64,000 nt of DNA from Aphrocallistes beatrix (lineage: Eukaryota > Porifera > Hexactinellida > Sceptrulophora > Aphrocallistidae), in assembly GCA_963281255.1 (NCBI GenBank), contig OY725488.1:5739524-5803523 (forward strand), read 5' to 3'. Positions within the stretch are counted from its first letter, which is position 1; each line of letters opens with the position of its first letter. Both the position numbers and the translations under genes were made by a program. This document shows, piece after piece, positions 4,863 through 61,492 of the stretch. Below the pieces are notes generated by a model. The model was not told where the DNA came from, ran no database searches, and saw only the letters and a list, made by a program, of their open reading frames with translations.

Positions 4863-5868
4863 CTAATATATGTACACATATACATTAATCGAGTTTTAAT
4901 AGTAAGGATGTGTAACAATTAAAATATACACGTAGTAACTGATTATTTGAATATATTTAGTTCACTTTGTAATTAGATTTATGGCTACTCTAATATACGT
5001 ACTATACACATATACATTAATCGAGTTTTAATAGTACAGGGTGGCTCATAAGTTCTGTGACAAGCTTCATTAGGTATAATATTTCTAATACTCAAACAAT
5101 CTTAGCTATTATGGTCTTTAGAGATTCTAAATCAAATATTCTCAATGATTCTAGAAGACTTTTCCAGTCTAAGACCTGTAACTGTGTTTTGTAAGGTGAT
5201 TTTTATGGGGAAAAAATGTGTCCTGGCACGCAGCGAAAATCCAGTATCAGGACCCACTGCTTTTCAAATGATCTTTCTAGAGTCTTCAAATTCTACGAAA
5301 AATTGGCTCTCACATTTCCCTCGAACAATCTAAATTTGTAGAAATATAGGATGTTTATATCAGTACATATTGAGAACCATTTGGATCAGATTTTTGGTGA
5401 TGTAATTTTGGGTGATTTTGCAAAATGTACCTAATTTGATCTCGTGAAATAATAACTTTCTCTCGTTTCTGATAATGAATTCAATGGATTTATGAAATAT
5501 TTCCATGGTGAATGAAAGGTATCTGGTGCTAAATCGCCATAGGACATCGATTATAAAGACATTTTTTACAGAAGTAGAGACCTTGATTCTCGATTTTCGC
5601 TGCGTGCCAGGACACATTTCCCCCCCATAAAACTCACCATACAAAACACAGTTCCAGGTCTTAGACTCGATAAATATATTAAAATCATTGAGAATATTCG
5701 AATTACAATCTCTAAAGATCATAATAGCCAAGATAGTTTGAGTATACATCATTTTATATATAATGAAGCTTGTATCAGAACTTATGAGCCACCCTGTAAG
5801 GATATGTAACAATTAAATGTAACAATTGAATATATTTAGTTCACTTTGTAATTAGATTTATGGCTACG
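4861..5868 (+). repeat. Tandem duplication of about 127 bp, second copy split
   Basis: The stretch 4861-4988 (CTCTAATATA through TTTATGGCTAC) is repeated at 4988-5036 plus 5799-5868. The second copy is interrupted by the mariner-type element 5037-5796 and ends on the start codon region of the propeller gene at 5860. So a decapitated copy of that gene's ATGGCTAC start lies at 4981. Both copies contain the Helitron-like terminus TCGAGTTTTAATAGTAAGGA. Confidence 0.8.
5037..5796. mobile_element. Tc1/mariner-type foldback MITE (760 bp)
   Basis: Termini CAGGGTGGCTCATAAGTT and AACTTATGAGCCACCCTG with a TA duplication on both sides (5035-5036, 5797-5798). The inverted arms extend over some 200 bp each (GTGTCCTGGCACGCAGCGAAA recurs in complement near 5600). 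No transposase frame; the minus-strand open frame over 5360-5812 is a chance reading of the arm. Confidence 0.88.
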
Positions 5869-7091
5869 AATGATCCTTCTTCAGACCATAAAGAAGATAA
5901 TTTTGTTTTAGAGTTGAAGAGGATCAGACAGCAAATACAACAAAAGTTCAGCGATGTGACTGACCTTGTGAAGGCTAGAGAGTGTGAACTTTTAAAGGAG
6001 TTAGATACCATTATAGCTTGTCATCAGTCTTATCGAAATGAAATTGAGAAAATATCTGAGAAAAAAAGAGATTTTGAAGCCATGAAGAAAGTATTAGAGC
6101 TAGATCTTAGTACATCAGTTGTAAAAACTTTTCAAACGAAATATTTCAAAGAAATTACTGAAGAATTGCAATCAATTAAGATTCCCGCTGAACCCCAAAT
6201 GATCCAATTCGTGTGTGACAATAACAATATATTTTCGGAATTGAACAAGTTGGGTAGTTTGGTAGAAAAGGTTAAATGTGTCGACTACAAGAGTAAAGTG
6301 CATCCTATAGTGAGTGTTGGTGAAAAAGGAGAAGGAAAAGATCAGTTGTGTGAACCGTATGGAACGGCAGTTGATAATAAAAACGGTAACATATTTGTTG
6401 CAGATCGATTTAATAACTGCGTAAAGGTATTCGATAGCTCTGGAAAGGTCTTGTTCAAATTCGGGGATAGTGACGGTATGTCATGCCCTAGGTGTCTAGT
6501 TATTACCGAGAATAGAATCCTAATATCGAATGGAGATTACTCTATCCACGTTTATCAATTAAATGGCGACTTTGTACTGAAAATTGGAAGATTTGGGAAA
6601 GGCGAAGGTGAAATTAATTATCCCCGTGGTATTACTTATGATGAATCGAGTGGTGATGTTTACATCTGTGATTCTAAAAATAATCGTGTTCAAATTCTTT
6701 CTAAAGAATTTACTTTCAAATCTCAGTTTGGTGCTGATAGACTCAAACGTCCTCGTGATGTGAAACTCTCGAAAGAACACATTTTTATTCTGGATGAGTC
6801 AAATCCTTGTTTGCATTTGTATAGCTATGATCTTATTCTAGTGAAGAGTGTCATTTCGCGAGGGCGAGACATGCAAGCTGAAGTACCTCTTTCTTTCTTT
6901 ATTGATAATTCCAAAAATATCCTCGTAACTGATTTGGCTTCTGATTGCGTTCATATATTTAATCCTCAACAAGTGTTGATCCACAAGATCCACACCACAC
7001 TTCTACTCATCCCATGGGAGTAGTTGTGGACGATAAAGGAAGAGTCATAGTAGCATGTCAAGCTGAAAAAGATTGCCTTCAGATATTTTAG
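5860..7091 (+). CDS. Coiled-coil plus NHL-propeller protein, C-terminal frameshift
   Basis: Starts at an ATG and reads 387 residues before a stop at 7023. Residues about 10-130 are charged and helical (likely coiled coil). From about residue 150 NHL repeats follow, with typical words PYGTAVDNKNGNIFVADRFN, PRGITYDESSGDVYICDSKN and FIDNSKNILVTDLASD. There is no RING finger and no B-box. After residue about 376 the frame loses NHL character, while another frame continues with MGVVVDDKGRVIVACQAEKD to a stop at 7091, exactly the expected last blade. A one-base indel (real or an assembly error) is therefore likely. Probable role by family: cytosolic propeller scaffold of the TRIM-NHL type; ligand unknown. 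Its 5' flank was duplicated and then hit by a mariner-type element. Confidence 0.8.
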
Positions 7092-8391
7092 AATATAATG
7101 GGATGATATTCCCTCTCTACGCGTACTTTCTGGCTCTTTTATATATATTCTATCCTGAATTCTCAATTTATTTTATCTATTTTTTTATGTTTGTATAAAA
7201 GTTTGTTTGTATAATACTCAGCATATGCGGAGAATGGTGTAGTATTTACGGCTTCATAATAGTGAACTAATTTAAAGAGCTTAATTAATTTTAGTGGGTT
7301 CGGTTTGGGACTGCACCCCTCATCCACCTCTGTCTCTGGTATACCTTTATAGTGCGGATGCCACAGGTTAAAACCACTGACTTAAGTATCTGCCATTTCT
7401 AGAGAAGGGAAAATGTCAAAATTAAATTTTTAAAAGAAGAGTGCTCTCGCACTTGAAAACTTTGGAGCACGCTCCCCCGTTTCTGCTACTATTTCAATAG
7501 ATCACTTCAGCCGCACACCTGGAGTTGGAGTGTGCTCCTAAAAGTAGGATTACAAATGTAAAACTTAATTATGGTACTCAAAGAACTTATGCCACACCCA
7601 TACCGCGAATATCGCCAAAATATTGGTGCGGCGGTCACTGCACCTGCTGCACCTGCTCCTTCGGCTCTGATTAGGGTACATGTCTGTTTGTATTTTAGGG
7701 TAGCCCTTAGTCAATCAGACATGCTAACTTGGGCCATGGAGAAAGCAGGACGCGACATTGAATTTCGCGGGACATGGCGGGACGCAATTGGAAAGTATTA
7801 TACATGTAATAAAAAAAACGGGATATAATGGGGAAATTTCATGTAAAAAGGGACAGTCATGAAAATTATCTTAATAGAAGAGTGAAAAAAGCGAAAACGT
7901 GGCAGTTTGCATGTGTGGTCAATCATAAAAAGGGAGATTGCTATCCCGATTCGATCATTTCTCCGATCTTGTACTTGTAGCACAGACTTTTACGTATTTA
8001 AACGCATAATCAGTCGCGTCTCTCTGGGCGCCCTTCTGGTGTGTCCACCTCAGCAAAAAGCACACTCTTATCCCATCCCATCTGTCAGGGACTATTTGGG
8101 ATCTGTTGCTGATATTAATAATATATGCCAGGAGTTGTAATGAGTTTCTTCTCTAGATTTTACTTATCGATCTCTTGCGTCTGGGAAGTATCAATTCATT
8201 TTATTCAACTGATTTAAAAAAGCACACTCCCGCGTCTGTGAGAATTTTTCACTCATTTGTTGTGTGGGAAACAAAAAAAAAATTATAACCAAAACTATTA
8301 AATCGTGATCCTTCTATAATTATCGAAAATTATCTTATTGATCCCTAATTATCCTCCCAACTTTGAGCTGTATTTCTTTGAGTTAGAAGCT
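7092..8391. other. Intergenic, mostly decayed repeats
   Basis: Holds the bounded repeat at 7719-7914, fragments of the GCACACTC MITE family near 7440-7545, 8057 and 8221-8250, and AT-rich filler. No convincing coding region. Confidence 0.5.
7719..7914. repeat. GCGGGAC-rich inverted-terminus repeat, copy 1
   Basis: Begins ACATGCTAACTTGG and ends GGCAGTTTGCATGT; interior has TTGAATTTCGCGGGACATGG and several GGGACA words. A second copy at 42910-43103 shares the termini and these interior words in the same order. Confidence 0.75.
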
Positions 8392-9291
8392 ATGGCCAGT
8401 GCAAATTTGATGGATGGTGTCAGCATACCGGAAAATATAAGTATCAGTGAAGTACCAGGTGCAGACTTCAAGAAGAGAGAGTATCCTGTGCGAGGCGCTT
8501 GTCAGCACAGAGGAGGGAAAAGCGTAGAACCTAGAGTGTTCTGCTGTCCAAACTCAATCGCCATCGATGAAATAACTCAGAATGTATTTATTTGTGATGG
8601 TGGAAACGACCGTGTACAAGTGCTAACGGCCTCTTTTGAATTCTCACATGAGTTCAATGATGGCATGGATACGCCGTTCGGTATATGCATCAGTGAGAAT
8701 AATGTCTACGTGACGCAGTGTAGAGGCGACCATCTCAACGTGTACTCGAAGCAGGGCAAGTTACTCAAGCTAGTTGGAAAGCAAGGAGATAAAGAGCTGC
8801 AGTTTCTATACCCCACAGGGGTTGCTGTCTCTACAGAGAAGAAGAAAGTTTACGTTTGTGACATGGAGAACGATCGCATTCAATGCTTGAATATGAATCT
8901 GACATTCGATTCGTTCATTCCTGATATCAAGCTTCCTCAAGATGTCAAACTGACCTCTGATAGGATTGTTGTTCTTAGTTTAGATGAAAAATGTGTCCGA
9001 AACTACGATTACGATCATAATTTGCTGGGAAAGATGATTCCCATTGGAGTAGGGTTTCCAACTCAACTCTGTATCGATGCTAAAGGCAATATTCTGCTTT
9101 CGGATGGCATGGCTATCTGTGTGTCCATCTTCTCACCTAGTGGAGAACTATTACAGAAGTTGGGTATGGATGGGTTGTACAGAGGAAAGTTCCTAATGCC
9201 TTCTGGGATTGCTTTGGACTCAGAAAACAGAATAATTATAGTATCTCAGAGTCCTGAAGAGTGTGTTCAGTCGTTTGAATTAAAATTGTAA
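8392..9291 (+). CDS. NHL-repeat propeller protein
   Basis: First in-frame ATG at 8392 gives 299 residues; the frame is open a little further upstream but without another ATG. At least five NHL-type blades are visible, with PNSIAIDEITQNVFICDGGN, PTGVAVSTEKKKVYVCDMEN and PSGIALDSENRIIIVSQSPE. It lacks RING, B-box and coiled coil. An upstream exon carrying them cannot be excluded, since an AG acceptor-like site lies just before the ATG (GTTAGAAG). Blade sequence is related to the gene at 5860 in the same orientation 1.3 kb upstream, so the two are probably an old tandem pair. Confidence 0.8.
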   Translation: MASANLMDGVSIPENISISEVPGADFKKREYPVRGACQHRGGKSVEPRVFCCPNSIAIDEITQNVFICDGGNDRVQVLTASFEFSHEFNDGMDTPFGICISENNVYVTQCRGDHLNVYSKQGKLLKLVGKQGDKELQFLYPTGVAVSTEKKKVYVCDMENDRIQCLNMNLTFDSFIPDIKLPQDVKLTSDRIVVLSLDEKCVRNYDYDHNLLGKMIPIGVGFPTQLCIDAKGNILLSDGMAICVSIFSPSGELLQKLGMDGLYRGKFLMPSGIALDSENRIIIVSQSPEECVQSFELKL

Positions 9292-46186: not shown

Positions 46187-46729
46187 ACCTCCGAGATACA
46201 GATTTAACACATTATTTATACTACCCGCGTACATCCAATATATTTGTATTATAAATATATAATAGTCATTGTCTGTTCGGGTATTCCGTAATACCCGATT
46301 GCAGATTTGATATATTTTAAGAAGCAAAACTACAAGGACTGTTATCGGTTAGTTGATGCGTGGTATTATGTCACCCTCTGATAGAGAAGGAAATTGCTTA
46401 TCTGATCTTCAAAGTCCACCTATCTGGTATTATTATGTTCTTAGACGTAGGAAAAATAATTACTGCAAATCTAGCTACGCAAAGATTCCTTGAGAGGAGA
46501 TGACTAATATTAAATAATAACCTTAAGAGAGATGACTAATATTAATGAAAACATTCATCAATATCAGTAATTGACTAAACCATACTTGCTAACCATCTCG
46601 GGATTTCCCCCCCCGGAAATTAGCCGGTCCAGAAATTATCAAAAGATCACTGTTACTAAGAATGATTATAGTGCGACTGCCACTGGACGATATATAAACA
46701 ATCTGATTGATACTTCTTAAATTAGACTA

Positions 46730-47674
46730 ATGGCTTGCGACCACAATCAACCCACTTGTGATAATATTCTTAGCGAACACAAGATTATTGGCAATCCTAA
46801 GAAAAGAATAACCCTAACTCCTCCAGAAGGACTGACTTCGCCCATAGCTTTTGCTCTTTATGAGGACAAGTCTCCAGTCTGCGGACCCCCTTCCATAGAT
46901 CCACTCGACAACACTTCTCTTTTCGTCGTGAGTGTTACAGCCCCTTATCTGATACAAATCTCGAATCAGAACTCAAATAGTAAGAAATGTTCCGGGAGTA
47001 GGCTCTGTGAGGTTGGCAGTACTGTGTTCACCACACCACACAACTCCGTGCACGGTGTCTCTACTCGTGGAAATTTAGTCTATGTCATTGATATGTTCAC
47101 CTCTCACACTTATGTGTTCTCAATCGCGGGAGATTTCGTCACTACATTTTATCCCAATTACAACAACCCCTACTTAACCGACGTAGCCATATCTCCTAAT
47201 GAAGAGACCGCTTTCTTCACGGACCATCAAGCTGACCGGATCCTTGTCCACTCGAGCTCCCTTCCTCTCCACGGAACTGCCGGAGAAGGAGTGTTGCTGG
47301 ACCCCGACCGGATCAGCACGACCCCCCTAGGTGGAGTGGTCTCACTTTGTCGTAACGGTGTGTTTCTGTTCCATGAGACCGGAAACGGATTAAGTTTAAC
47401 GCGAAAGTTGTTTTCATCGGCTCACTATTTATACCCATCCTCCTCAGACAATATAAGCACATGGCCTAGTCTCTGTTGCCATCCTAGTAGGGACCTGATC
47501 TACCTAATCACACCCTCGGAACTCTTGGCTATCAACCTGGATGGGATAGTGTTGGAGCGTTTGAAGTTAAAAGACATTCTCCCGACTCTACAATACAACG
47601 TGGATATTGAAGTGAATAGTAAAGGGAGATTGTTTTTTCTGAACACTTATAACAAATGCATTGAATCGTTTTAA
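46730..47674 (+). CDS. Divergent six-bladed propeller protein (NHL/SMP-30 like)
   Basis: 314 residues in one exon from MACDHNQPTCDN. Weak repeats with NSVHGVSTRGNLVYVIDMFT, LTDVAISPNEETAFFTDHQA and VDIEVNSKGRLFFLNTYNKC have the spacing of NHL blades, but individual blades are worn. No RING, B-box or coiled coil. It is divergent from the VWA gene on the other strand, starts 544 bp away, and a shared regulatory region is possible. Confidence is high that it is a real gene, moderate for the fold. Confidence 0.7.
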   Translation: MACDHNQPTCDNILSEHKIIGNPKKRITLTPPEGLTSPIAFALYEDKSPVCGPPSIDPLDNTSLFVVSVTAPYLIQISNQNSNSKKCSGSRLCEVGSTVFTTPHNSVHGVSTRGNLVYVIDMFTSHTYVFSIAGDFVTTFYPNYNNPYLTDVAISPNEETAFFTDHQADRILVHSSSLPLHGTAGEGVLLDPDRISTTPLGGVVSLCRNGVFLFHETGNGLSLTRKLFSSAHYLYPSSSDNISTWPSLCCHPSRDLIYLITPSELLAINLDGIVLERLKLKDILPTLQYNVDIEVNSKGRLFFLNTYNKCIESF

Positions 47675-49807: not shown

Positions 49808-50100
49808 TCTGCAGAGTATATTTCTTGATATAATGAATATACGTATTTGGAGTTATCCTATCAGCTGGATTTGAGTTTGGGAACTTGTCAAAATTTGATA
49901 TAAAAGTTATTGAGTCAATTCGGTATTTTGGGTTAAAAAAGCTTATAAAGGTTTTGCGCGGGTTTTGCGGGCGTTTGTACAAAACTGACCAACCGCAAAG
50001 CACTTTTGTATTTATCCTAATCTAGACAAGGTCTACTTGAAATAATCATAATTGATCCTCCCTGAAAACGGTTCTACAATAGAAATACAGTTTGGATAAA

Positions 50101-53100
50101 ATGGCTACTCGAATGATAGATACTTCTGCACATTCTGCTGAACATTCCCAACCTGAAGGTATACAATCTCTAATCGGGAGGGAACAGTACTTCAATGACG
50201 TCACATTCATCTGTCACCTCTGTAACAACACAGTGAATAGAGCTACATTCCTCTCTTGTTTACACTCATTCTGTAAACAGTGCATCGATGACAAACTCCA
50301 GACAGACACGCATTCGATGCTCTGTCCTCTCTGTCCCAGCTCTGAGTACCAGAGTGTAGAGCTACAGAGCAACCCACTTCCTGAACTGATCAGTAAGTTG
50401 AAGCAGTTGAAGTCAGTCGTAAGAGATGAAACGAAGAGCCTCGAGTGTACAGACTGTGTGTTTGGAGTGAAAGGTAAGCCAGCTGTTGCCTATTGCGTGG
50501 AATGTAATGCTACGATTTGTCAGATCGATATGAAGAGCCACGAGAAGTACAACATAGGACATCTGATACTAGAACTGAACCAGCTACAGGGATCGACTGT
50601 TCAGGATATAATCAAGCGACTACAAACTCCAAAACAGGGTAAATATGTATTTTTAGTGCAGCTACTGTAGGAAAATGCCCTTATGACATGGACAGCCTGA
50701 TACACCGTCTGTACATGCGATACTGCGAAATTTAACAGCTTAATTTCTACTAAATTATAGGATCTCTTTATGGTATAGGTATGCACCATCAATATTTTTC
50801 GCGAAATCTCATCACTTTCGGGTTTTTATAAGCGTATATTCATATTTTAAACTTCCACTGCGAAGCTGTTTAAATTTTATGCTCGAAACGAGTTCTCGTA
50901 TTTCAATATGTAGAATCCGATTTTCGGACTCATAAGAATGTGAGTATATTAGTTTTCATAAATTGAGTAGTTCCGATGTATTACGATATTCATATCTCAC
51001 GTGCCAAGTCACTTACTGGAGCTGCACTATCGGTCTGTCGACCGACATTTTATTTCTCGATTAATTTCTGGCATTCTTGATTTGTAAATCGTAGACGCCG
51101 ATTGTTTCCAGAATAAAACATCATCAAACGATGAAACAAAAATTCAAATGTCCATTTCGAGTACAAAACCTCTTAAACACATCGTTTTCATCTTTATTGG
51201 CCGCAGAATTTTTAGTGTGCTTCCTATAATATTATATTGGGATCGGATCTACGCATCTACGTTGATTTATCCTTACTATTAAAACTCGATTAAGGTGTAC
51301 ACGTATATTTGTTTGCTTATATATACAAGCGCGCTTTACTTGTATCAGCTGCGCGGCTTGCGGACATTGTGCATCCGCCGGAGGCGCCCTTTGGGCGCCT
51401 AGGCTCACTTTGATTAATTATAAGGTAGATAATATCTCTAAATACGTCTTTCCTACTGTTATAATCGATATCACTCGAAAAATCACAAAATTTGTCAATT
51501 TTTCAATTATTGATGCGTGATAATGACGTCATAAAAGAGTGGAGTCATTATTTTTTGATGAGAGTTGTATGATATTTGAGATCTATTAATAGACACATTT
51601 TATTAAAATTTCAGCCTTGTATCACATAAAATGGCTGAGACAAAGTGTCTTCCAGCCGCACAGCGCAAGCAAGCGAAGCGCGTGTGTTATAATTAAATAG
51701 GATACAGGCTAAAATAATCAGATTATTAAGGTGAAGTCAAGAACCGACCTTATTAGTGTAGGTTAATACTATAATAAAAAGCTAGTTATCGAAAGAATCA
51801 AGAGAAAAGAAGATTCTGAAACAGTACAAGAAGCTGCTAATCCTCTCACTGCTTCATCTGCAGAGATAGAAGACGTATGTATCCTAGAAGCGAGGAGCAG
51901 AATCTCTCAGTTGGAAGAGAGGAAATCCGATCTCGAGAAGGAATGGAACAACCAGGTGGCTGAGACAGTCGAGTTCTTCCAACAGCTGCACACGAAACTG
52001 CAAGCTCGTCAAACAGCTGTGTTGGAAGAACTGTCACAGCTGTATCAGCCACTGATGACTCCACTGCAGGAGGCCATAGGACAGCTGGAGCAGACAGTGA
52101 CTTACACAGGGTACGTGGGGATGCTGGGGAGGTACTCACGAGTTGCAGGCATCAGTGAGAAACCAGCAGAGAAGATACAGGACATCTCTATCCTCCTAGC
52201 TAACTTCACCACTCCCTCTGATCCCTACTCTGTACAAGTTAAACAACAAGACCAGCACACTGTTCAGGCTTCGGTAAATGCCTTTCTAACATTACAAAAT
52301 GTTCAGAAACCAAGCGATCCCGTCGATAATATTCCCAAGTTATTTTTATATAAAAAACAATTTAGTCACCAAATAGGTAAAGAAATTACTCGTACAATGT
52401 ATATTGCGCCTTTAGACGTAGCATTCAATTATACGACTAACATTTTCTATGTTCTATTTGACTGTTATTGGAAAACTTACCAACAACTACACAACTCATT
52501 GGTTGAGAGACAGACAGTGGAGATAAAGAATCCTACTTCAATTCCTATCAACTCTTCAATTGCTCTCCTCACTAACTCTGTTTATATAATGGCTAATCAT
52601 ATTGTGTATGTTTACTCGGATACAGGAGAATACAGAAATCAATTACAACAGATTCAGAATCAAATTGGTGCTGTTTTCCCAAATCCCAAGATTTATACTT
52701 TTACTGGCATCAATATGATATATCTGGCTTCTTTGCAATCATCTCAAGTGTATATGGTTGATTCTGTTAATGGCTATAACCAAGGAAGCATTGACTTAAC
52801 TAGTAATGGACAGAATATGCCAGGATATACTGGTTACAATAACTTTGTAGACATGGTCAGATCTCCTAAACAAAATAATCAACTATTGATACTATACTCA
52901 ATGTACCAAACTCAAAATCCACCCAATCACGAGACGACTAACAATCAATATTACATTCAAGTATTTGATATTAATAATTTGCAATTCTATGGTTCATATT
53001 CTCTTTCACAACAGATGTCTCCTTTCTGTTGTCTAACATCACATGGCAATACATTGTATGTTTTGGATGTCTCTACAGGATCTGTTCATCTTTATGACTT

Positions 53101-53335
53101 TAATGAAATGCAAAATAATCAACAATACAATCAGTATGGATATGGTGGCTATTATGATAATAATTCAACTTATTATTTGTGGAATCAAAAGTCCATCACA
53201 GAGAATTCTGTCCCCAAAAGTACCAAGCTAGATGGCAAGGAACCTAAAAACGAGATGATTAGAACCTTTTCTAATCAGCATTCCAAGAACCAAGTCTTGT
53301 TGTTATCTGGTGGAAGGATCCATTTAATTTCCTAA
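50101..53335 (+). CDS. RING/B-box/coiled-coil/propeller (TRIM-like) protein, gene A
   Basis: Two exons, 50101-50638 and 51786-53335, joined by a GT-AG intron in phase 1 (CAGG|GTAAAT ... GCTAG|TTATCG), giving 695 residues. Exon 1: RING of C3HC4 type (C38, C41, C53, H55, C58, C61, C75, C78) and a B-box-like site (C116, C119, C132, C135, C140, D143, H147, H154). Exon 2: coiled coil (RISQLEERKSDLEKEWNNQV onward), then a propeller-like beta region without canonical NHL motifs and a Q/N/Y/G-rich insert (NNQQYNQYGYGGYYDNNS). By family an E3 ubiquitin ligase whose C-terminal region recognises a target. Tandem partner of gene B 4.3 kb downstream. The translated frame in exon 2 alone has a Met further in, but splicing makes the upstream part coding. 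Confidence 0.85.
50639..51785 (+). other. Intron of TRIM-like gene A, repeat-filled
   Basis: Begins GTAAATATG with dispersed repeat F, then Helitron-like fragments: a family 5' terminus TCCTTACTATTAAAACTCG at 51274, a minus-strand copy from 51326 and a plus-strand 3' end (GCAAGCAAGCGAAGCGCG) near 51665. Ends at TAG 51785. Confidence 0.75.
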
Positions 53336-53844
53336 TACTACTAGCAAACTTATACATTCACAAGGTTGCCTAACTAAGTTAATTATTTTACTGACTCAAC
53401 TAGTTGCTGGTTAGGTTGAATAATGTTTACCTCTGAATTAATTTCCTCAAATGGTTTATTTATATATTGTTTAATTATTTGTAAATATTTTGTAGTAATA
53501 TAGTATTAGTATAGGGTAGGGCTGATTTAGACTCCAGAAGAATCTACAGAACTACAAATTTCTCTATGTTTTATTCTAGTTCACTAATTATTTTTATCAT
53601 TCAGAACAACAATATATTTTGTTTCATACTTAGTAATACTACTATAATGCTATATAACGTATTTAAAATCGGATCCCAGTTAATATACGTAACAATAAAA
53701 AATAGATATTCATCATAATTATCCATCTTTTTCTCGATCTTTCTTAGTCTCGACCTCAATTAATTTTGGTTACCAGAATTTAAAATGACTAGCATGAATC
53801 CTAAAATTCAGAATGGGCCGGGACCATCGCGGAAATTAGGTATC
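53336..53844. other. Spacer between TRIM-like genes
   Basis: AT-rich sequence with the presumed 3' UTR of gene A; no other gene. Confidence 0.5.
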
Positions 53845-53852
53845 CTGACCAG

Positions 53853-54011
53853 CAGGGTTGCCGTGGGAATGGGAATCCCCATACCCATGGGATGGGAATA
53901 GGAATGGGAATGATTTTTCCCCCCGTGGGGATTCCCATACTATTCCTATGGAGATTCCCACAGGAAATTTATGGGAATGGGAATTGAAATTTAATTCCCA
54001 CGGCAACCCTG
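53853..54011. mobile_element. hAT-type MITE with GGGAATGGGAAT words (159 bp)
   Basis: Termini CAGGGTTGCCGTGGGAAT and ATTCCCACGGCAACCCTG. Flanks CTGACCAG (53845-53852) and CTGCCCAG (54012-54019) match at 7 of 8 bases, an aged target duplication. Interior of GGGAATGGGAATCCCCAT type. Confidence 0.82.
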
Positions 54012-54382
54012 CTGCCCAGAGTCATAAGAAAAAGTAACCCTACGACAAAGCTGTTACTTATAGCCAGAGCATTAAGCACTTCTCTAAGAATACTTTTCGA
54101 AATAATTGCTTCCAAAATGTATGGGTTATACATTTGAATTGTTCCAAATTTCTCAAAAAAGATAGAAAAAGTGTAAGATTTTAATACCAAGATATCCAAG
54201 TGCCATTCTTTAAAAGTCCACTTTCTAATTTAAATTTAATCTGCATTTCTTTTAATATAGAAAGATAGAGAAAAATTCTTAGGATACCTGGAGAAATTGT
54301 TTTTGCACAAAGTCTACTTGAAATAATCATAATTGATCCCCCCGAGGACTGTTCTACAATAGAAGTACACTGTTGAGATAAA

Positions 54383-57300
54383 ATGGCTACTCGAATGATA
54401 GATACTTCTGCACATTCTGCTGAACATTCCCAACCTGAAGGTATACAGTCTCTAATCGGGAGAGAACAGTACTTCAATGACGTCACATTCATCTGTCACC
54501 TCTGTAACAACACAGTGAATAGAGCTACATTCCTCTCTTGTTTACACTCATTCTGTAAACAGTGCATCGATGACAAACTCCAGACAGACACGCATTCGAT
54601 GCTCTGTCCTCTCTGTCCCAGCTCTGAGTACCAGAGTGTAGAGCTACAGAGCAACCCACTTCCTGAACTGATCAGTAAGTTGAAGCAGTTGAAGTCAGTC
54701 GTAAGAGATGAAACGAAGAGCCTCGAGTGTACAGACTGTGTGTTTGGGGTGAAAGGTAAGCCAGCTGTTGCCTATTGCGTGGAATGTAATGCTACGATTT
54801 GTCAGATCGATATGAAGAGCCATGAGAAGTACAACATAGGACATCTGATACTAGAACTGAACCAGCTACAGGGATCGACTGTTCAGGATATAATCAAGCG
54901 ACTACAAACTCCAAAACAGGGTAAATATGTATTTTTAGTGCAGTTCCTGTAGGAAGATGCCCTTATGACATGGATGGCCTGCTACGCCGTCCGTATGTAT
55001 GTATGTCTGTCCGTCCGTACACGCGCTACTGCGAAATTTAACAGTTCGATTTTTACCAAAATATGGGCTCTCTTAACTCTTTATGGTGTAGGTGTGCACC
55101 GTCAATATTCTTTGTCGAAATCTCATCACTTTCGGGTTTTTATAAGCGTATATTCATATTCTAACACCGCTGCAAAGCTTCGTTTAAAGATTTAAGTGAG
55201 GTTTCAACGACTAATGTAGGGTTTTCACTATGAGAATCCGATTTTCGCACTTTGAAATTAATAATCTGAATGTTTTATCAGTTATTAACAGATGTATATA
55301 TCAGGGTTAGGTTCAAGTGCTTAAGTACATGCTTGTTGTCCTTCACTTCTTCTAATATCAATGTTCTTCAAATCCCATCTCAAATATAGTAGTGATACTT
55401 AATATATTTTGATTTTTATGTAAGTGTTTCGTACTATTTCAACTTTCAATTAAAATAAACGTGTGTGATACTACAAGTATGTAACCTATTTTGCACTCTT
55501 AGTACGGGAAATTTATTATAAGAGCTTGGAAAGTACTTGTGTACTAAAATCTAAAGAGTACTTGTATTGTACTTGAGTACTTTCAAAAGTACGTACTTGA
55601 ACCCAACTCTGGTATATACGTATACATATTTTCATTGTGACAGCGCGCTTGTCTCTTATATTTCCAAATGATATCAATTTTAATGTATTCCGACTTTTGA
55701 TCCTAATGATGACGTAATCATTCGATGATGTCACAATTTTTTCAGGTTAGCTATCAGTAAGTGAGTTATTCCATTACACTTCCATATTTCTATCACCAAT
55801 AATGGCGAAGTGATGGTCAAAACCTGGAATTTTTTATATTAAATTTTTGATTATGGCGTCATAACTTAATCCATGGTGTCACGGTCCTCAGAGATCAATT
55901 CCAAGTTGGATCTACCTCTAAAAACATACTATATGGTGTGTAGATGTTGTTTAAAAAGTATCATAATTTTATGAAAAATGCACACTAATTTTGTTTAACA
56001 GCTATACCATTACAATAATAACTCTGCTAGTTATCGGAGGAATCAAGAGAAAAGAAGATTCTGAAACAGTACAAGAAGCTGCTAATCCTCTCACAGCTTC
56101 ATCTGCAGAGATAGAAGACGTATGTATCCTAGAAGCTAGGAGCAGAATCTCTCAGTTGGAAGAGAGGAAATCCGATCTCGAGAAGGAATGGAACAACCAG
56201 GTGGCTGAGACAGTCGAGTTCTTCCAACAGCTGCACACGAAACTGGAAGCTCGTCAAACAGCTGTGTTGGAAGAGCTGTCACAGCTGTATCAGCCACTGA
56301 TGACTCCACTGCAGGAGGCCATAGGACAGCTGGAGCAGACAGTGACTTACACAGGGTACGTGGGGATGCTGGGGAGGTACTCACGAGTTGCAGGCATCAG
56401 TGAGAAACCAGCAGAGAAGATACAGGACATCTCTATCCTCCTAGCTAACTTCACCACTCCCTCTGATCCCTACTCTGTACAAGTTAAACGGAAAGACCAG
56501 CACACTGTTCAAGATTCTGTAAACGCCTTTCTAACATTACAAAATGTTCCAAAACCCAGCAATCACCCGGGAAAAATTTCCAAGCTATTCGCACATAAGA
56601 AACAAATAGGTCATAAATTAGGTAAAGAAATTACTCGTACAATGTATATAACACCTTTAGACGTAGCATTCAATTCTACCACTAACATTTTATATGTTCT
56701 ATTTGACTGTTATTGGAAAACTTACCAACAACTACACAACTCATTGGTTGAGAGACAGACAGTGGAGATAAGGAATCCTACTTCAATTCCTATCAACTCC
56801 TCAATTGCTCTCCTCGCTAACTCTGTTTATATAATGGCTAATCATATTGTGTATGTTTACTCGGATACAGGAGAATACAGAAATCAATTACATAAGATTC
56901 AGAATCAAATTGGTGCTATTTTCCCAAATCCCAAGATTTATACTTTTACTGACATGCATTCAATATACCTAACTTCATTACAATCGCATCAAGTGTACAA
57001 GATACATTCTGGTAATGGTTCTAATCAGGGATCTATTAACTTAACCAGTTATGGACAGAATATGCCAGGATATACTGGTTGCAATAACTTTGTAGACATG
57101 GTCAGATCTCCTATACAAAATAATCAACTATTGATACTATACTCAATGTACCAAACTCAAGATCCACCCAATCACAAAACAACTAACAATCAATATTCTA
57201 TACAAGTATTTTATATTAACAATATGCAATTCTATGGTTCATATTCTCTTTCACAACAGATGTCTCCTTTCTGCTGTATAACAGCACATGTCAATACACT

Positions 57301-57607
57301 GTATGTTTTGGATGTTTCGACCGGATCGGCTCATATTTACGACTTTAATGAAATGCATAATAATAACCAAAGGTACAATCAGTATGATGGATACAACGAG
57401 TATGGATATGGTGTCAGTGTTAAAAAGAATATTAAAAATGCTTTTTATTTATGGAGTCAAAAGTACACCACAGAGAATTCTGTCCCGAAAAGTACTAAGC
57501 TCGAAGGCAAGGGACCTAAAGATGAAATGATTAGAGCCTTTCCTAGTCAGTATTGCAAGAATCAAGTCCTGCTGTTATCTGGTGGAGAGATCTATTTCAT
57601 TTCTTAA
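54383..57607 (+). CDS. RING/B-box/coiled-coil/propeller (TRIM-like) protein, gene B
   Basis: Two exons, 54383-54920 and 56031-57607, same intron position and phase as gene A, giving 704 residues. The exon-1 protein is identical to that of gene A over all 179 residues; the DNA differs at four third-codon positions. The coiled-coil part differs by a handful of residues. The propeller part then differs widely in patches (for example HQVYKIHSGNGSNQGS against SQVYMVDSVNGYNQGS) and the Q/N/Y/G insert is longer and different. Probably an E3 ligase with a recognition domain that has diverged from its twin. An in-frame run upstream of 56031 is intron. Confidence 0.85.
54921..56030 (+). other. Intron of TRIM-like gene B
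   Basis: Starts GTAAATATGT like the gene A intron and shares its first ~230 bp with many mismatches, adds a GTAT/TCCGTCCG microsatellite near 54995, and diverges completely after about 55150. Ends CTCTGCTAG. It contains a fragment of the GCGCGCTTG repeat end at 55646. Confidence 0.75.
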
Positions 57608-57773: not shown

Positions 57774-58270
57774 TTCGCGTGCAAAACTGTGAACTGCCAG
57801 GCCCAGAAAGTTGATTTTTGGCATGTGGGAGTCTTTTGGCTATAGCTCCACTAAGTTCTGAGCTCAGACGAAAATGTCGACTCATCATGGAATTATGACG
57901 TCATTGTCACCTTTTTTATAATTAGAAATTTCAGTTTTTCGACTATAACTCAGTCATTTTAGTCGATAGAAGGCTGAAATTTTTATAGAATGTGTATACT
58001 AATATATCTCACATATGATGCAACTATCATCAAAAATGATGACTCATCACTCTGTATGACGTCATCATTACACATCAAAATTTTTAAAATTGACAAATTT
58101 GATGATTTTTGCGTGGGATATTGATTATAACAGTAGGTTCAGATGCATTTAGAGATGCTATCTCCCTAATAATTAATCAATGTGACCCCAGGCGCCCGCA
58201 GGGCGCCTCCGGCGGACACAAAGTGTCCGCCAGCCGCGCAGCACAAGCAAGAAAAGCGCGCTTGTATCTT
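57774..58270 (+). mobile_element. Helitron-like element copy
   Basis: CAGGCCCAGAAAGTTGATTT through GCCAGCCGCGCAGC to GCGCGCTTG (58262-58270), then T. The left end is fused to a reversed CAAGCGCTTCGCGTG end at 57769. GGCGGACACAAAGTGTCCGC hairpin present. Confidence 0.75.
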
Positions 58271-58289
58271 ATATCTTAAAACGCTAGGA

Positions 58290-58905
58290 TTTTTGTTTGT
58301 TTGTCCGAATTGATTGAAGAATTGGCAAGTCGTGGAGATACGAAAATTGGCATGTAGGTGTCAAATGATGAATCTAGGATTAAGTTCGAAAATCTAAGCG
58401 AAATTTTCGCACCTCTGCAAAAAAAATGGAAAACAATTTTTCACACCTTTTCTATACAATACTATGTACGGCTTCACTCTCACAATAGAAATTATTATAC
58501 GACAAAAGGCCGGCGCCATGTTTTATCGGCAGTGGGTGTCCTAAGAGGGATTTCCCTGAAAGGGGGTGTCCATTTATAGAGGGAAATATATTGTACAATA
58601 TGATAAAACAGGACGCAGTGGGTGTCTGGACACCCAGGACGCCCCCCGGTGGCGCCGGCCCTGGACAATATTGTAGGCTGTAATTGTAATTAATACTTCA
58701 AAGTAATAACTTATATAAATGTCTCAATTATATATTATAGTGTATGGCAGTTAAAAAGGTTATTTGTATATTTTCACACCTTTATATACATATTTTCACA
58801 CGATTTGATGAATTTTGAAATTATGCTAGAGACTAGCTACCAAAGGTTGACATGGGGTTGTCAGGGGTGTAGATTTCGAATATCATTTTTCAGATTGATA
58901 TGATA
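58290..58905 (+). repeat. Dispersed repeat E, copy 2, with nested MITE
   Basis: Reverse orientation relative to 61495-62090: TTGGCAAGTCGTGGAGATAC, CACCTCTGCAAAAAAAATGG, CTGCCATACACTATAA in complement, CATGGGGTTGTCAGGGGTGT. Interrupted at 58506-58663. Confidence 0.7.
58506..58663. mobile_element. GGCCGGCGCC-terminus MITE (158 bp)
   Basis: Termini AAGGCCGGCGCCA and TGGCGCCGGCCCTG, flanked by GACAA (58501-58505, 58664-58668). The uninterrupted sequence at 61850-61890 (complement ATCCGACAATATTGTAGG) gives the empty site, confirming the borders within a few bases. Confidence 0.78.
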
Positions 58906-59162
58906 AATTATTCGTTGACCTGGGCTGGGGTTGGTTAACCGATTTTATGGTTCGGTTATTTTTGTTTCCTTCAGGGGGGTTAACCGGTTAACCGGTTAAC
59001 CGAATCCAGCCTTGCGTTGACCTTTGTTTACAATATATACTATATAAAGGAAAAAAATCCAAAAATAGTGTAGATTGAGTAACTCTAGGCGCCCGCAGGG
59101 CGACTCTGCGGACACTGCGTGTCTGCAAGCCGCGTAGCGCAAGCAAGCGAAGCGCGCTTGTA

Positions 59163-60232
59163 TATCTATATATCTGTAACAAATTGATTGAAGAAACTGA
59201 TCAGTACAGAAAGCTGATTTTTGGCATGTGGGAGTATTTTGGCAATGACTCCACTAAGTTCTGACCTCAGACGAAAATGTCGACTCATCATGGAACTATA
59301 ACGTCATTGTCACCTTTTTTATAATTAGAAATTCCAGTTTTTCGACTACAAGCGCGCTTCGCTTGCTTGCGCTGCGCGGCTGGCGGACACGAAGTGTCCG
59401 CCGGAGGCTCCCTTCGGTCGCCTGGAGGTGACATTGGTTAATTAAACAGGATATATAATCTCTAAATATGTCCATCTTAGTTTTAAATCGATATTACTCG
59501 AAAAAACACCAAATTTGACAATTTTTAAAATTTGATGAGTAATGATGACGTCATAACAAAGTGATGAGTCATCATTTTTTGGTGATAGTTGCATCATATG
59601 TGACGCATGTTAGTATACAGATTCTATTAAAATTTCAGCATTCTATCTCCTATAATGGCTGAGTTATGCTCGAATAACTGTATTGCTTAACTTTAAAAAT
59701 GTGACAATGACGTCATAATTCCATGATGAGTCGACATTTTTGTCTGAGCTCAGAACTTAATGGAGCCATAGCCAAAAGACTCCCACATGCCAAAAATCAG
59801 CTTTCTGGGCCTGACAGTTTCTTCAATCAATTCGTTACAGATATATATATATATATACGTACACACATACACACATATATAGATTAATCGAGTTTTAATA
59901 GTAAGGATAACTCAGCCATTTCATCTGATAGAAGGGTGAAATTTTAATAGAATGTGTACATTAATATATCTCAGATATGATGCAATTATCATCCAAAAAT
60001 GATGACTCATCACTCTGTTATGACGTCATCAATACGCATCAAAAATTGAAAAATTGGCTAATTTGGTCATCTTTCGAGCGATATCGATTATAATAGTAAA
60101 ACAGACGTATGTATTTAGAGATGTTATCTACTTTATAATTAATCAATATGATTCTATGCGTTGGAGGGAGCCTCTGGCGGACACAAAGTGTCCGCCAGCC
60201 ACGCAGCGTAAGCAAGTGAACCGCGTTTATAT
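59163..60232 (+). mobile_element. Helitron-like element, host copy split by a second copy
   Basis: Plus-strand family sequence 59170-59348 (CTGTAACAAATTGATTGAAG onward) continues at 59908 with TAACTCAGCCATTTC and reaches the hairpin end GTCCGCCAGCCACGCAGCGT near 60215. The break contains the inverted copy 59349-59907. Confidence 0.8.
59349..59907 (-). mobile_element. Complete Helitron-like element, 559 bp, exact borders
   Basis: On the minus strand it starts TCCTTACTATTAAAACTCG and ends GAAGCGCGCTTG. It lies between host A and host T with no duplication, because the flanks CGACTA and TAACTC join to the uninterrupted family sequence CGACTATAACTC. Near the 3' end are a GGCGGACACTTCGTGTCCGC hairpin and a second GC-rich stem. 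Helitrons classically start TC, end CTRR after a hairpin and insert between A and T; here the end is CTTG. No Rep/helicase, so non-autonomous. Confidence 0.8.
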
Positions 60233-60324
60233 ATATACAGTATGCCCGATAATTATTTAGAATTTCACTTTTATGCATTCCTGGTCATCCTGTAATATTT
60301 ACACTGTTTGTAGTATAATCACTA

Positions 60325-60818
60325 CAAGCGCGCTTTCGCTTGCTTGCGCGCGTGGCTGGCGGACACTTTGTGTCCACCGGAGGCGCCTGGGGTCACATTG
60401 ATTAATTTAAAGGGGGATAGGATCTCTAAATACACCTGTCCTAATTTTATAATCGATATCGCACGAAAAATCACCAAATTTGTCAATTTTTAAAATTTTG
60501 ACGCGTAATGATGACGTCATAACAAAGTGATGAGTAATCTTTGATGATAGTTGCATCATATGTGAGGTATAATAATATACACACTATATTAAAATTTTAC
60601 TCTTCTATCACCTAAAATGGCTGAGTTATGGTCGAAAAACTGAAATTTCTAATTATAAAAAGGATGACAATGACGTCATAATTCCATGATGAGTCGACAT
60701 TTTCGTCTGAGCTCAGAACCTAGTGGAGCTATAGTCAAAAGACTCCCACATGCCTAAAATCAGCTTTCTGTGCTCGGTAGTTTCTTCAATCAATTCGTTA
60801 CATATATATATATATATA
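60325..60818 (-). mobile_element. Helitron-like element copy
   Basis: Minus-strand copy with 3' end CAAGCGCGCTTTCGCTTGCT at 60325 and body to ATCAATTCGTTACATATATA near 60810. 5' terminus lost in a TA microsatellite. Confidence 0.75.
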
Positions 60819-61147
60819 CAAGCGCGTTTCGCTTGCTTGCGCTGCGCGGCTGGCGGACACTTTGTGTCCGCCTGGAGTCACATTGGTTAATTATAAGGGA
60901 AATAACAACTCTAAACACGTCTATCTTACTGTTATAATCGATATCGCACGGAAAATCACGAAAATTAACAATTTTTAAAATTTTTGATGTGTAATGATGA
61001 CGTCATAACAAAGTGATGAGTCATCATTTTTTGATGATAGTTGCGTCATATCTGAGATATGTTAATATACACATTCTATTAAAATTTCAGCCTTCTATTA
61101 CCTAAATGGCTGAGTCAAAGTTGAAAAACTCAAATTTCTAATTATAA
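60819..61147 (-). mobile_element. Helitron-like element copy, truncated
   Basis: 3' end CAAGCGCGTTTCGCTTGCTT at 60819; body stops at about 61147 where a fragment of the TTAA foldback element begins. Confidence 0.7.
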
Positions 61148-61492
61148 ACTGACCAAAACACGTTTTCATAGCAACACTGGAATGTAGCAACATTCCATGA
61201 AAAAATTCCAAATTTTTCGTATTAACCCATTCATATCTTAGTTCTATGCGAAAAACACTTAGAAGTGCCCTTTAACGACCTGAAAATCACCAAATTTGTC
61301 ACAAATATAACCTATTGCGGAACCATATGGTGACTAAATTTCTCTAAATTTTAACAACGGATATGAGTACTTTGACATCATATTTATATATGCTGGTAAT
61401 ACATTCCTAAGCTCTATTGTGCTTTGTTAATGATTTAAGCCAGCTCATGTATTAGTTCAACCATCTTTTACCGCATCCCTAATCCATCCCTA
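61148..61492. repeat. TTAA foldback element, half copy
   Basis: From CTGACCAAAACACGTTTTCA to TCTTTTACCGCATCCCTAA, equal to the right arm of the copies at 25365 and 47760. Confidence 0.75.

Follow-up and report, generated by a model that had tools for sequence, protein, structure and literature searches.

Bounded tracts of similarity between two tandem RING/B-box-like genes of the sponge Aphrocallistes beatrix point to ectopic gene conversion

The gene A and gene B locus

Two neighbouring genes, here called A and B, lie in a 64,000-nucleotide stretch of the genome of the hexactinellid sponge Aphrocallistes beatrix (assembly GCA_963281255.1, contig OY725488.1, positions 5,739,524 to 5,803,523; this whole stretch is referred to as the window, and positions are counted from its first letter). 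The two genes resemble each other piecewise, and we suggest that this is very probably the result of ectopic (interlocus) gene conversion in short, bounded tracts that are limited by local similarity. A and B are two-exon RING/B-box-like paralogues on one strand, gene A spanning 50101-53335 and gene B 54383-57607, with starts 4.28 kb apart and GT-AG phase-1 splice sites common to both; the outer coordinates 50101 and 57607 given by an initial annotation of this DNA hold. Synonymous and replacement divergence per site (dS and dN) between the genes were calculated by the Nei-Gojobori method, and support for models with different numbers of segments was compared by the Bayesian information criterion (BIC). 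The features are as follows.

50041..50100, + strand: gene A leader, with homology to gene B remaining (48 aligned bases at 50041-50088, 90% identical)
50101..50638, + strand: gene A exon 1, with the RING finger (residues 38-78) and a B-box-like zinc motif; low-dS tract 1 (dS 0.036 against gene B)
50639..51785, + strand: intron of gene A (phase 1, GT-AG), alignable to gene B over its first ~215 bases; dispersed repeat at ~51264-51639
51786..53335, + strand: gene A exon 2, stop included; weak match to a coiled coil, followed by a C-terminal half that has no family match
51786..52243, + strand: low-dS tract 2 of gene A (codons 180-332), from dS and the change-point fit
52436..52714, + strand: probable low-dS patch in the gene A C-terminal half (codons 397-489); 1/59 synonymous sites changed, marginal BIC support
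52802..52930, + strand: second, weaker low-dS patch of gene A (codons 519-561); 0/25 synonymous sites changed, only in models with at least six segments
54383..54920, + strand: gene B exon 1; protein identical to that of gene A exon 1
54921..56030, + strand: gene B intron; most of 55165-56007 matches repeats that recur in the genome and differ from those of gene A
56031..57607, + strand: gene B exon 2, stop included, from the dS comparison
56031..56488, + strand: low-dS tract 2 of gene B (codons 180-332), from dS and the change-point fit

The RING finger of A and B passes the Pfam threshold (PF00097, 27 bits, cut-off 21) and finds the RINGs of RING2/BMI-1, TRIM69 and TRIM2 in the PDB. The B-box-like motif scores 14.1 bits with zf-B_box, under the cut-off of 24.1, and its region weakly resembles the TIF1-beta chain 6o5k (E 0.003); judged by eye, we take its Cys/His spacing to fit a B-box. 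A coiled coil after the B-box is indicated below cut-off by PML_CC in A (E 0.04) and by TRIM_CC in B (E 0.1).

A step in divergence within one exon

Exon 1 (538 bases) encodes the same protein in both genes, differing by exactly 4 synonymous changes and by none on 423 replacement sites (dS 0.036), and the first ~470 bases of exon 2 are nearly as close, codons 180-335 carrying 4 synonymous and 5 replacement differences (dS 0.038); on both points the initial annotation was right. After codon 335, dS is 0.278 and dN is 0.107 (dN/dS ~0.38), a jump in dS of ~7-fold inside a single exon. Change-point fits place the main break at codon 332/333: only 7/221 synonymous sites are changed in codons 1-332, compared to 52/223 after (Fisher 1e-10). 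The largest deficit of synonymous change falls in codons 2-332, and when the 59 synonymous changes were scattered along A/B at a uniform rate, 0/20,000 simulations gave one as extreme, on which ground we reject a uniform duplication of the pair. The limit of low dS is not simply an exon or domain border.

The 3' half of exon 2 had been described as divergent, and while this is true of its overall dS, the divergence is uneven. In codons 397-489 only 1/59 synonymous sites is changed and in codons 519-561 0/25, while the flanking blocks reach 0.3-0.65; in the DNA alignment, 50-base blocks within these patches are 94-100% identical and lie between blocks of 64-90%. The BIC stands at 338.6 with two segments and rises to 340.0 with four and 345.2 with six. 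With two segments only narrowly ahead of four, the patch at codons 397-489 is probable on these figures, while that at 519-561, where two segments are more clearly ahead of six, should be regarded as weak.

Constraint in the C-terminal half

No Pfam family, including NHL, was matched in the C-terminal half of A/B; its comparison with NHL gave an hhalign probability of 1.5%, and no PDB match was found up to E 10. The structure predicted for the gene A half had a mean predicted local distance difference test score (pLDDT) of 38, too poor for use. A six-bladed NHL propeller was thus not recovered in A/B, and a diverged propeller may be present. The initial annotation had proposed a diversification of the propeller. 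We could not confirm the fold, and the dN/dS after codon 335 speaks for a half that, as far as the two sequences tell, is constrained overall.

Among 30-codon windows after codon 335, the sole ratio above 1 is that of codons 631-660 (1.32), an indel-bearing window, while for codons 451-480 the ratio is undefined (3 replacement, 0 synonymous changes). Replacement change is raised in codons 391-480 (7/212, compared to 3/773 in codons 1-331; Fisher 0.0013), a rise that either weaker constraint or diversification could explain. Beyond these codons and the one indel-bearing window, we found no sign of positive selection in A/B in this comparison of two sequences with little power; diversifying selection is not apparent from the sequences, and the likeness to immune recognition receptors is a resemblance only. 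It might nonetheless be supposed that, beside conversion and compatible with it, the C-terminal surface is diversified by selection and conversion is selected against there, as in a receptor. The raised replacement in codons 391-480 points in this direction, as do the slots of the RING-less NHL array described below, which contact ligand in TRIM71 and vary beyond the synonymous rate. The low dN/dS, a single ratio above 1 that comes from an indel-bearing window, another that is undefined, and a fold and ligand surface that are not established all argue against it. We regard such selection as unlikely, a judgement that is separate from that on conversion.

Edges of the similar tracts and intron repeats

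Homology between A and B stops ~70 bases upstream of the ATG, and no clear flank homology is seen beyond this point or from shortly after the stop. The 75 bases before the ATG had been said to differ widely; this does not apply to 50041-50088, and is correct in that homology is gone ~70 bases upstream. The intron, of which the same had been said, is in fact similar at its start: identity is 94% across the 50 aligned bases that begin at 50639, and blocks of 81-94% follow to ~50856. Beyond this, most of the sequence resists alignment, largely because each intron has its own dispersed repeats; the middle thus does differ widely, through largely unrelated repeats rather than just drift. Similarity in exon 2 starts about at the splice acceptor. 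The view of an exon-restricted conversion therefore suits this last edge, but not the spill into the intron nor the probable recurrence inside exon 2.

Repeats were searched in the genome (100.5 Mb, 28 contigs), scoring only the best candidates. The gene A intron at ~51264-51639 matches dozens of genome sites among these best-scored candidates, and in the gene B intron three repeat stretches fill most of 55165-56007. The best-scoring copy elsewhere is 89% identical to the A block, while those of the three B blocks reach 87%, 83% and 80%. Since these copies are only 80-89% alike, the sequences suggest that the intron insertions are older than the conversion tracts, and that they might have acted as barriers.

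Short dispersed repeats, many of them as inverted pairs, are also found at 57790-61150, with one copy in the gene A intron (51264-51639). Separately, if the intron were retained, both genes would reach a nearby stop after about the same ten residues (50639-50670, 54921-54952); judging from the reading frame, a retained intron may yield a RING/B-box-only protein, although this could be due to chance.

The same pattern in an unlinked array

A RING/B-box/NHL array on another contig (C3, 485-500 kb) has four usable genes, L009, L010, L014 and L018, that form six pairs; L018 is split over two frames, and a fifth gene, L013, is broken and was excluded. In L014, the only gene of the array that was profiled, B-box (25.3 bits, cut-off 24.1) and NHL (47.7 bits, cut-off 20) pass, while the RING (PF13920; 21.6 bits, E 1.9e-4) is under its cut-off of 27. 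These genes have one open frame across the tract, and thus no intron there.

Within coding bases 0-499, 100-base blocks are 88-99% identical, and in all six pairs every one of them exceeds the 100 bases upstream (72-85%); identity falls at +500. In 6/6 pairs, codons 1-160 likewise carry less synonymous change than the C-terminal part (Fisher 1e-12 to 0.0012). The difference is greatest in L018-L014, where changes fall on 1/108 synonymous sites of codons 1-160 and on 60/191 of the C-terminal part (Fisher 1e-12). The outgroup L005 (contig C11), compared with three of these genes (L018 not included), gives a dS of 0.62-0.67 over codons 1-160 and 0.71-0.81 after codon 340, with no significant difference between the two parts (Fisher 0.40-0.90).

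The relationships among the four genes also change along their length. Of the informative sites upstream of the ATG, 17/23 back one grouping, while 24/31 at coding bases 1500-1899 back another; this second grouping is also backed by 67/71 sites at coding bases 1900-2300, a count that is inflated where unrelated flanks were aligned. Coding bases 0-499 contain few informative sites (5). None of 10,000 permutations was as uneven as this change of grouping along the gene (0/10,000). Gene conversion, as invoked by the initial annotation, is supported in that dS between A and B is not uniform and the paralogues of this array form a mosaic rather than one simple tree.

Gene conversion and its alternatives

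The steps in dS, the edges on both sides, the different intron repeats, and the repetition of the pattern in an unlinked array with an outgroup control are what we observe. We propose that A and B would be an older tandem duplicate that was partly overwritten by ectopic gene conversion, with the remainder keeping the older divergence. Tract 1 would cover exon 1 and the start of the intron, and tract 2 would begin near the exon 2 acceptor and end at codon ~332; a smaller tract lies probably at codons ~397-489, and perhaps another at 519-561. We infer a feedback, as well as the direction of copying and a consequence for the protein: conversion would need local similarity, so that the constrained RING/B-box/coiled-coil part stays convertible, while the different intron repeats and the changes accumulated in the less constrained C-terminal half would stop it. 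The outcome would be one interchangeable E3 (ubiquitin ligase)/assembly (coiled-coil) module on two different C-terminal halves, with mixed dimers possible. A third donor was not found: at E 0.001, a genome search with exon 2 returns nothing beyond exon 2 of A and of B.

Unequal crossing over between tandem copies would create chimeric genes with N- and C-terminal parts of different age without any conversion, and both the tandem arrangement and the differing affinities of upstream and downstream parts in the C3 genes, which crossovers also give, are in line with it. A crossover, however, brings the upstream flank along, whereas the flank 5' of the homogenised part is the more divergent one, both in A/B (90% over 48 bases and then no clear homology, against 4 differences in 538) and in C3 (72-85% against 88-99%); in addition, edges on both sides require a double exchange or conversion. 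We therefore consider this explanation very unlikely. A route through complementary DNA (cDNA), where a spliced transcript recombines with the other gene so that exons are homogenised and the intron is spared, would account for the equal dS in exon 1 and at the start of exon 2 (0.036 and 0.038), and for exon 2 similarity from about the acceptor. In contrast, the similarity enters the intron (94% over the first 50 aligned bases), the leader, although part of a cDNA, is less alike than exon 1, and the C3 tract shows the same pattern in one open frame with no intron to spare; heterologous intron repeats are a simpler account of the limit, and we give the cDNA route slightly less credit again than crossing over.

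Heterozygous animal genomes do give false tandem copies, and a false haplotype duplication or collapsed copies could in principle lie behind the A/B pair as well. Given that there are no clear shared outer flanks, that the introns hold different repeats, that dS in the 3' part is 0.28, and that the pattern is repeated in an unlinked four-gene array, such an artefact is less probable still. Least probable of all is a uniform duplication with strong purifying selection on the N-terminal half, synonymous sites included: replacement changes are rare too (none in exon 1), and in the C3 genes dS against the outgroup is rather low over codons 41-80 (0.35), but the step in dS within one exon and the outgroup dS over codons 1-160 both speak against it. 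Synonymous constraint was judged unlikely on the same ground, the outgroup L005 giving no significant dip in dS in the C3 array.

Several points weigh against conversion as we propose it, or limit its reach. The next relatives of A/B are only 23-35% identical, so that the control for synonymous constraint had to be borrowed from the C3 array, where the low dS of codons 41-80 relative to the outgroup has to be kept in mind. The A/B pattern itself is read from the assembly sequence and would be sensitive to an assembly error, and the BIC backing for the patches inside the C-terminal half is only marginal. Closer copies exist for some shorter pieces of the intron repeats (in gene B 105 bases at 94% and 39 bases at 95%, in gene A 25 bases at 100%), which makes the relative age of the insertions uncertain. 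Among the C3 pairs, L018-L010 shows the least contrast, with 85-89% identity over 300 bases upstream, and L009-L010 climbs back to 95-96% in two later blocks. Four nearby or tandem pairs (L054, L055, L056 and L061/L062), which are presumed to be RING-less, as Pfam was run only on L057, had halves that were not significantly different in 4/4 cases (Fisher 0.12-1.0). Two other RING/B-box pairs were uninformative: L027, whose C-terminal frame alone was compared, against L005 (dS 0.02, 0.02, 0 and 0.37 in four windows), and L004/L006, which is saturated.

Finally, the array L057-L060 has the opposite polarity in 6/6 pairs, with a dS of 0.39-0.56 in codons 1-120 and of 0.05-0.07 in the rest, which means that a similarity feedback does not belong to the effector half as such. 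The half that stays frozen differs from array to array, and a frozen effector half is no rule.

In these same four genes, codons ~41-120, part of the coiled-coil region, have a dS of 0.2-1.6 per 40 codons and a dN of up to 0.41, between much more similar segments. Several array members (L018, L013, L027 and L063-L066) are split across frames, truncated or carry stops; such broken members, as possible pseudogenes, may still join in conversion.

Variable motif slots in a RING-less NHL array

The RING-less coiled-coil/NHL array lies at 2.86-2.97 Mb of contig C3 and comprises L057-L060 and L063-L066, several of the latter being broken genes; L067, which is more distant, and L068, a different protein, were excluded from the slot test. 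Across the eight propellers, F-x-x-P-x-G / D-x-x-N slots are variable at 12/12 sites, compared to 31/178 other sites. For L063-L066 alone the figures are 10/12 and 16/178, a test that is only partly held out, since the motif idea from L057-L060 preceded L063-L066 while the exact pattern was set after both. The minimum number of replacement changes in the slots is 28 on 31 sites, against 26 synonymous changes on 117 sites overall (binomial 5.5e-7); against the few synonymous sites inside the slots, the value is 0.018. Path-averaged synonymous change is raised in the slots too (proportion of changed synonymous sites, pS, 0.15 compared to 0.07 elsewhere), which hints at imported variation.

A passage of PMC5908797 lists 10 RNA-contact residues of human TRIM71. 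After alignment of human TRIM71, one numbering offset fits all 10 of these listed contacts, and 10/10 fall within slots (36/267 residues), with a slot pattern that was loosened to suit the blades and written with the contact residues already known. The slot effect is not universal, and other pairs are mixed: replacement rates in slots and other sites are 0.037 and 0.066 for L061/L062 and 0.020 and 0.009 for L055 (12 and 21 slots in these two, with few changes), 0.472 and 0.096 for L056, and 0.383 and 0.186 for L054. In the C3 RING array a looser pattern, which also catches doubtful slots, gives 13/21 variable slot sites against 84/272 (Fisher 0.0066), with a slot replacement rate of 0.24 that is not above the synonymous 0.29.

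Taken from the sequences, these data allow us to propose, quite tentatively, that the genome holds a piecewise-converted, propeller-type repertoire in which shared modules are kept alike while ligand-contact positions diversify. In A/B and the C3 RING array the shared module would be the RING/B-box part, and in the RING-less array the propeller framework. Together these genes might form a family for the recognition of RNA or ligand that is diversified in the germline, and A/B would be an outlier that bears an effector. We hold this reading to be less likely than its negation because NHL loops are variable between distant proteins in any case, the patterns were in part adjusted afterwards, the other pairs are mixed, and variation might have been imported from unseen donors.

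Two further NHL genes lie in the window, at 5854-7020 and 8389-9288 (PF01436, 66 and 63.5 bits), with no RING among their matches. An open reading frame at 46721-47671 (317 amino acids), upstream of gene A, has a propeller-like look by eye and no Pfam match; no similarity between it and the C-terminal half of A was detected (E 0.21).

Relation to known systems

The closest precedent we found is mammalian IFIT1/IFIT1B. As described in PMC4887208, these are neighbouring paralogues whose 5' part is repeatedly homogenised while the 3' ends diverge; in the cat they are 97% identical over nucleotides 1-948 and 63% after, and synonymous changes step likewise, while the comparison between species is even. 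The IFITs, as presented there, are antiviral TPR proteins, unlike the RING/B-box genes A/B with their different intron repeats and probable extra 3' patches, and recurrence in time is seen for IFIT only. Of the IFIT1-type signs, the synonymous step is present in both A/B and C3, and the drop at +500 is shared by 6/6 C3 pairs, all from one species.

The B30.2 domain is also carried by TRIM proteins. In zebrafish NLR-B30.2 genes, nearly 400 in number, PMC4852459 reports conversion within and across groups that acts differently on the two domains, with B30.2 reported to be under positive selection; A/B differ in being a single pair with no positive selection shown. Fish finTRIM genes, according to PMC2657112, are clustered TRIM genes with RING/B-box (RBB) in one exon and a variable C-terminal domain; the RBB and B30.2 trees are reported to be highly congruent and B30.2 to be under positive selection, and in the text consulted recombination is tested while the term gene conversion has 0 occurrences. 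With TRIM-NHL proteins (TRIM71/LIN41 and Brat, as described in PMC5908797 and PMC9634614), A/B share the RING and the B-box-like N-terminus, and the C3 array shares B-box and NHL; A/B differ from them in that no NHL repeat is detectable.

The process of conversion itself is already known from the IFIT1/IFIT1B and NLR-B30.2 reports. Domain-limited conversion in genes like A/B was not found in our literature searches, which is no proof of its absence from print.

Implications

If our explanation is right, conversion in RING/B-box and NHL clusters goes module by module, and trees and dates based on whole genes mislead. The E3 module could then be identical between paralogues whose C-terminal halves part ways. 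The reverse polarity in a related array turns what decides the converted half into a testable question within one genome. The diversified ligand-contact slots on a frozen NHL framework, seen here in sequence, would be a candidate recognition repertoire if they hold in more genes and animals.

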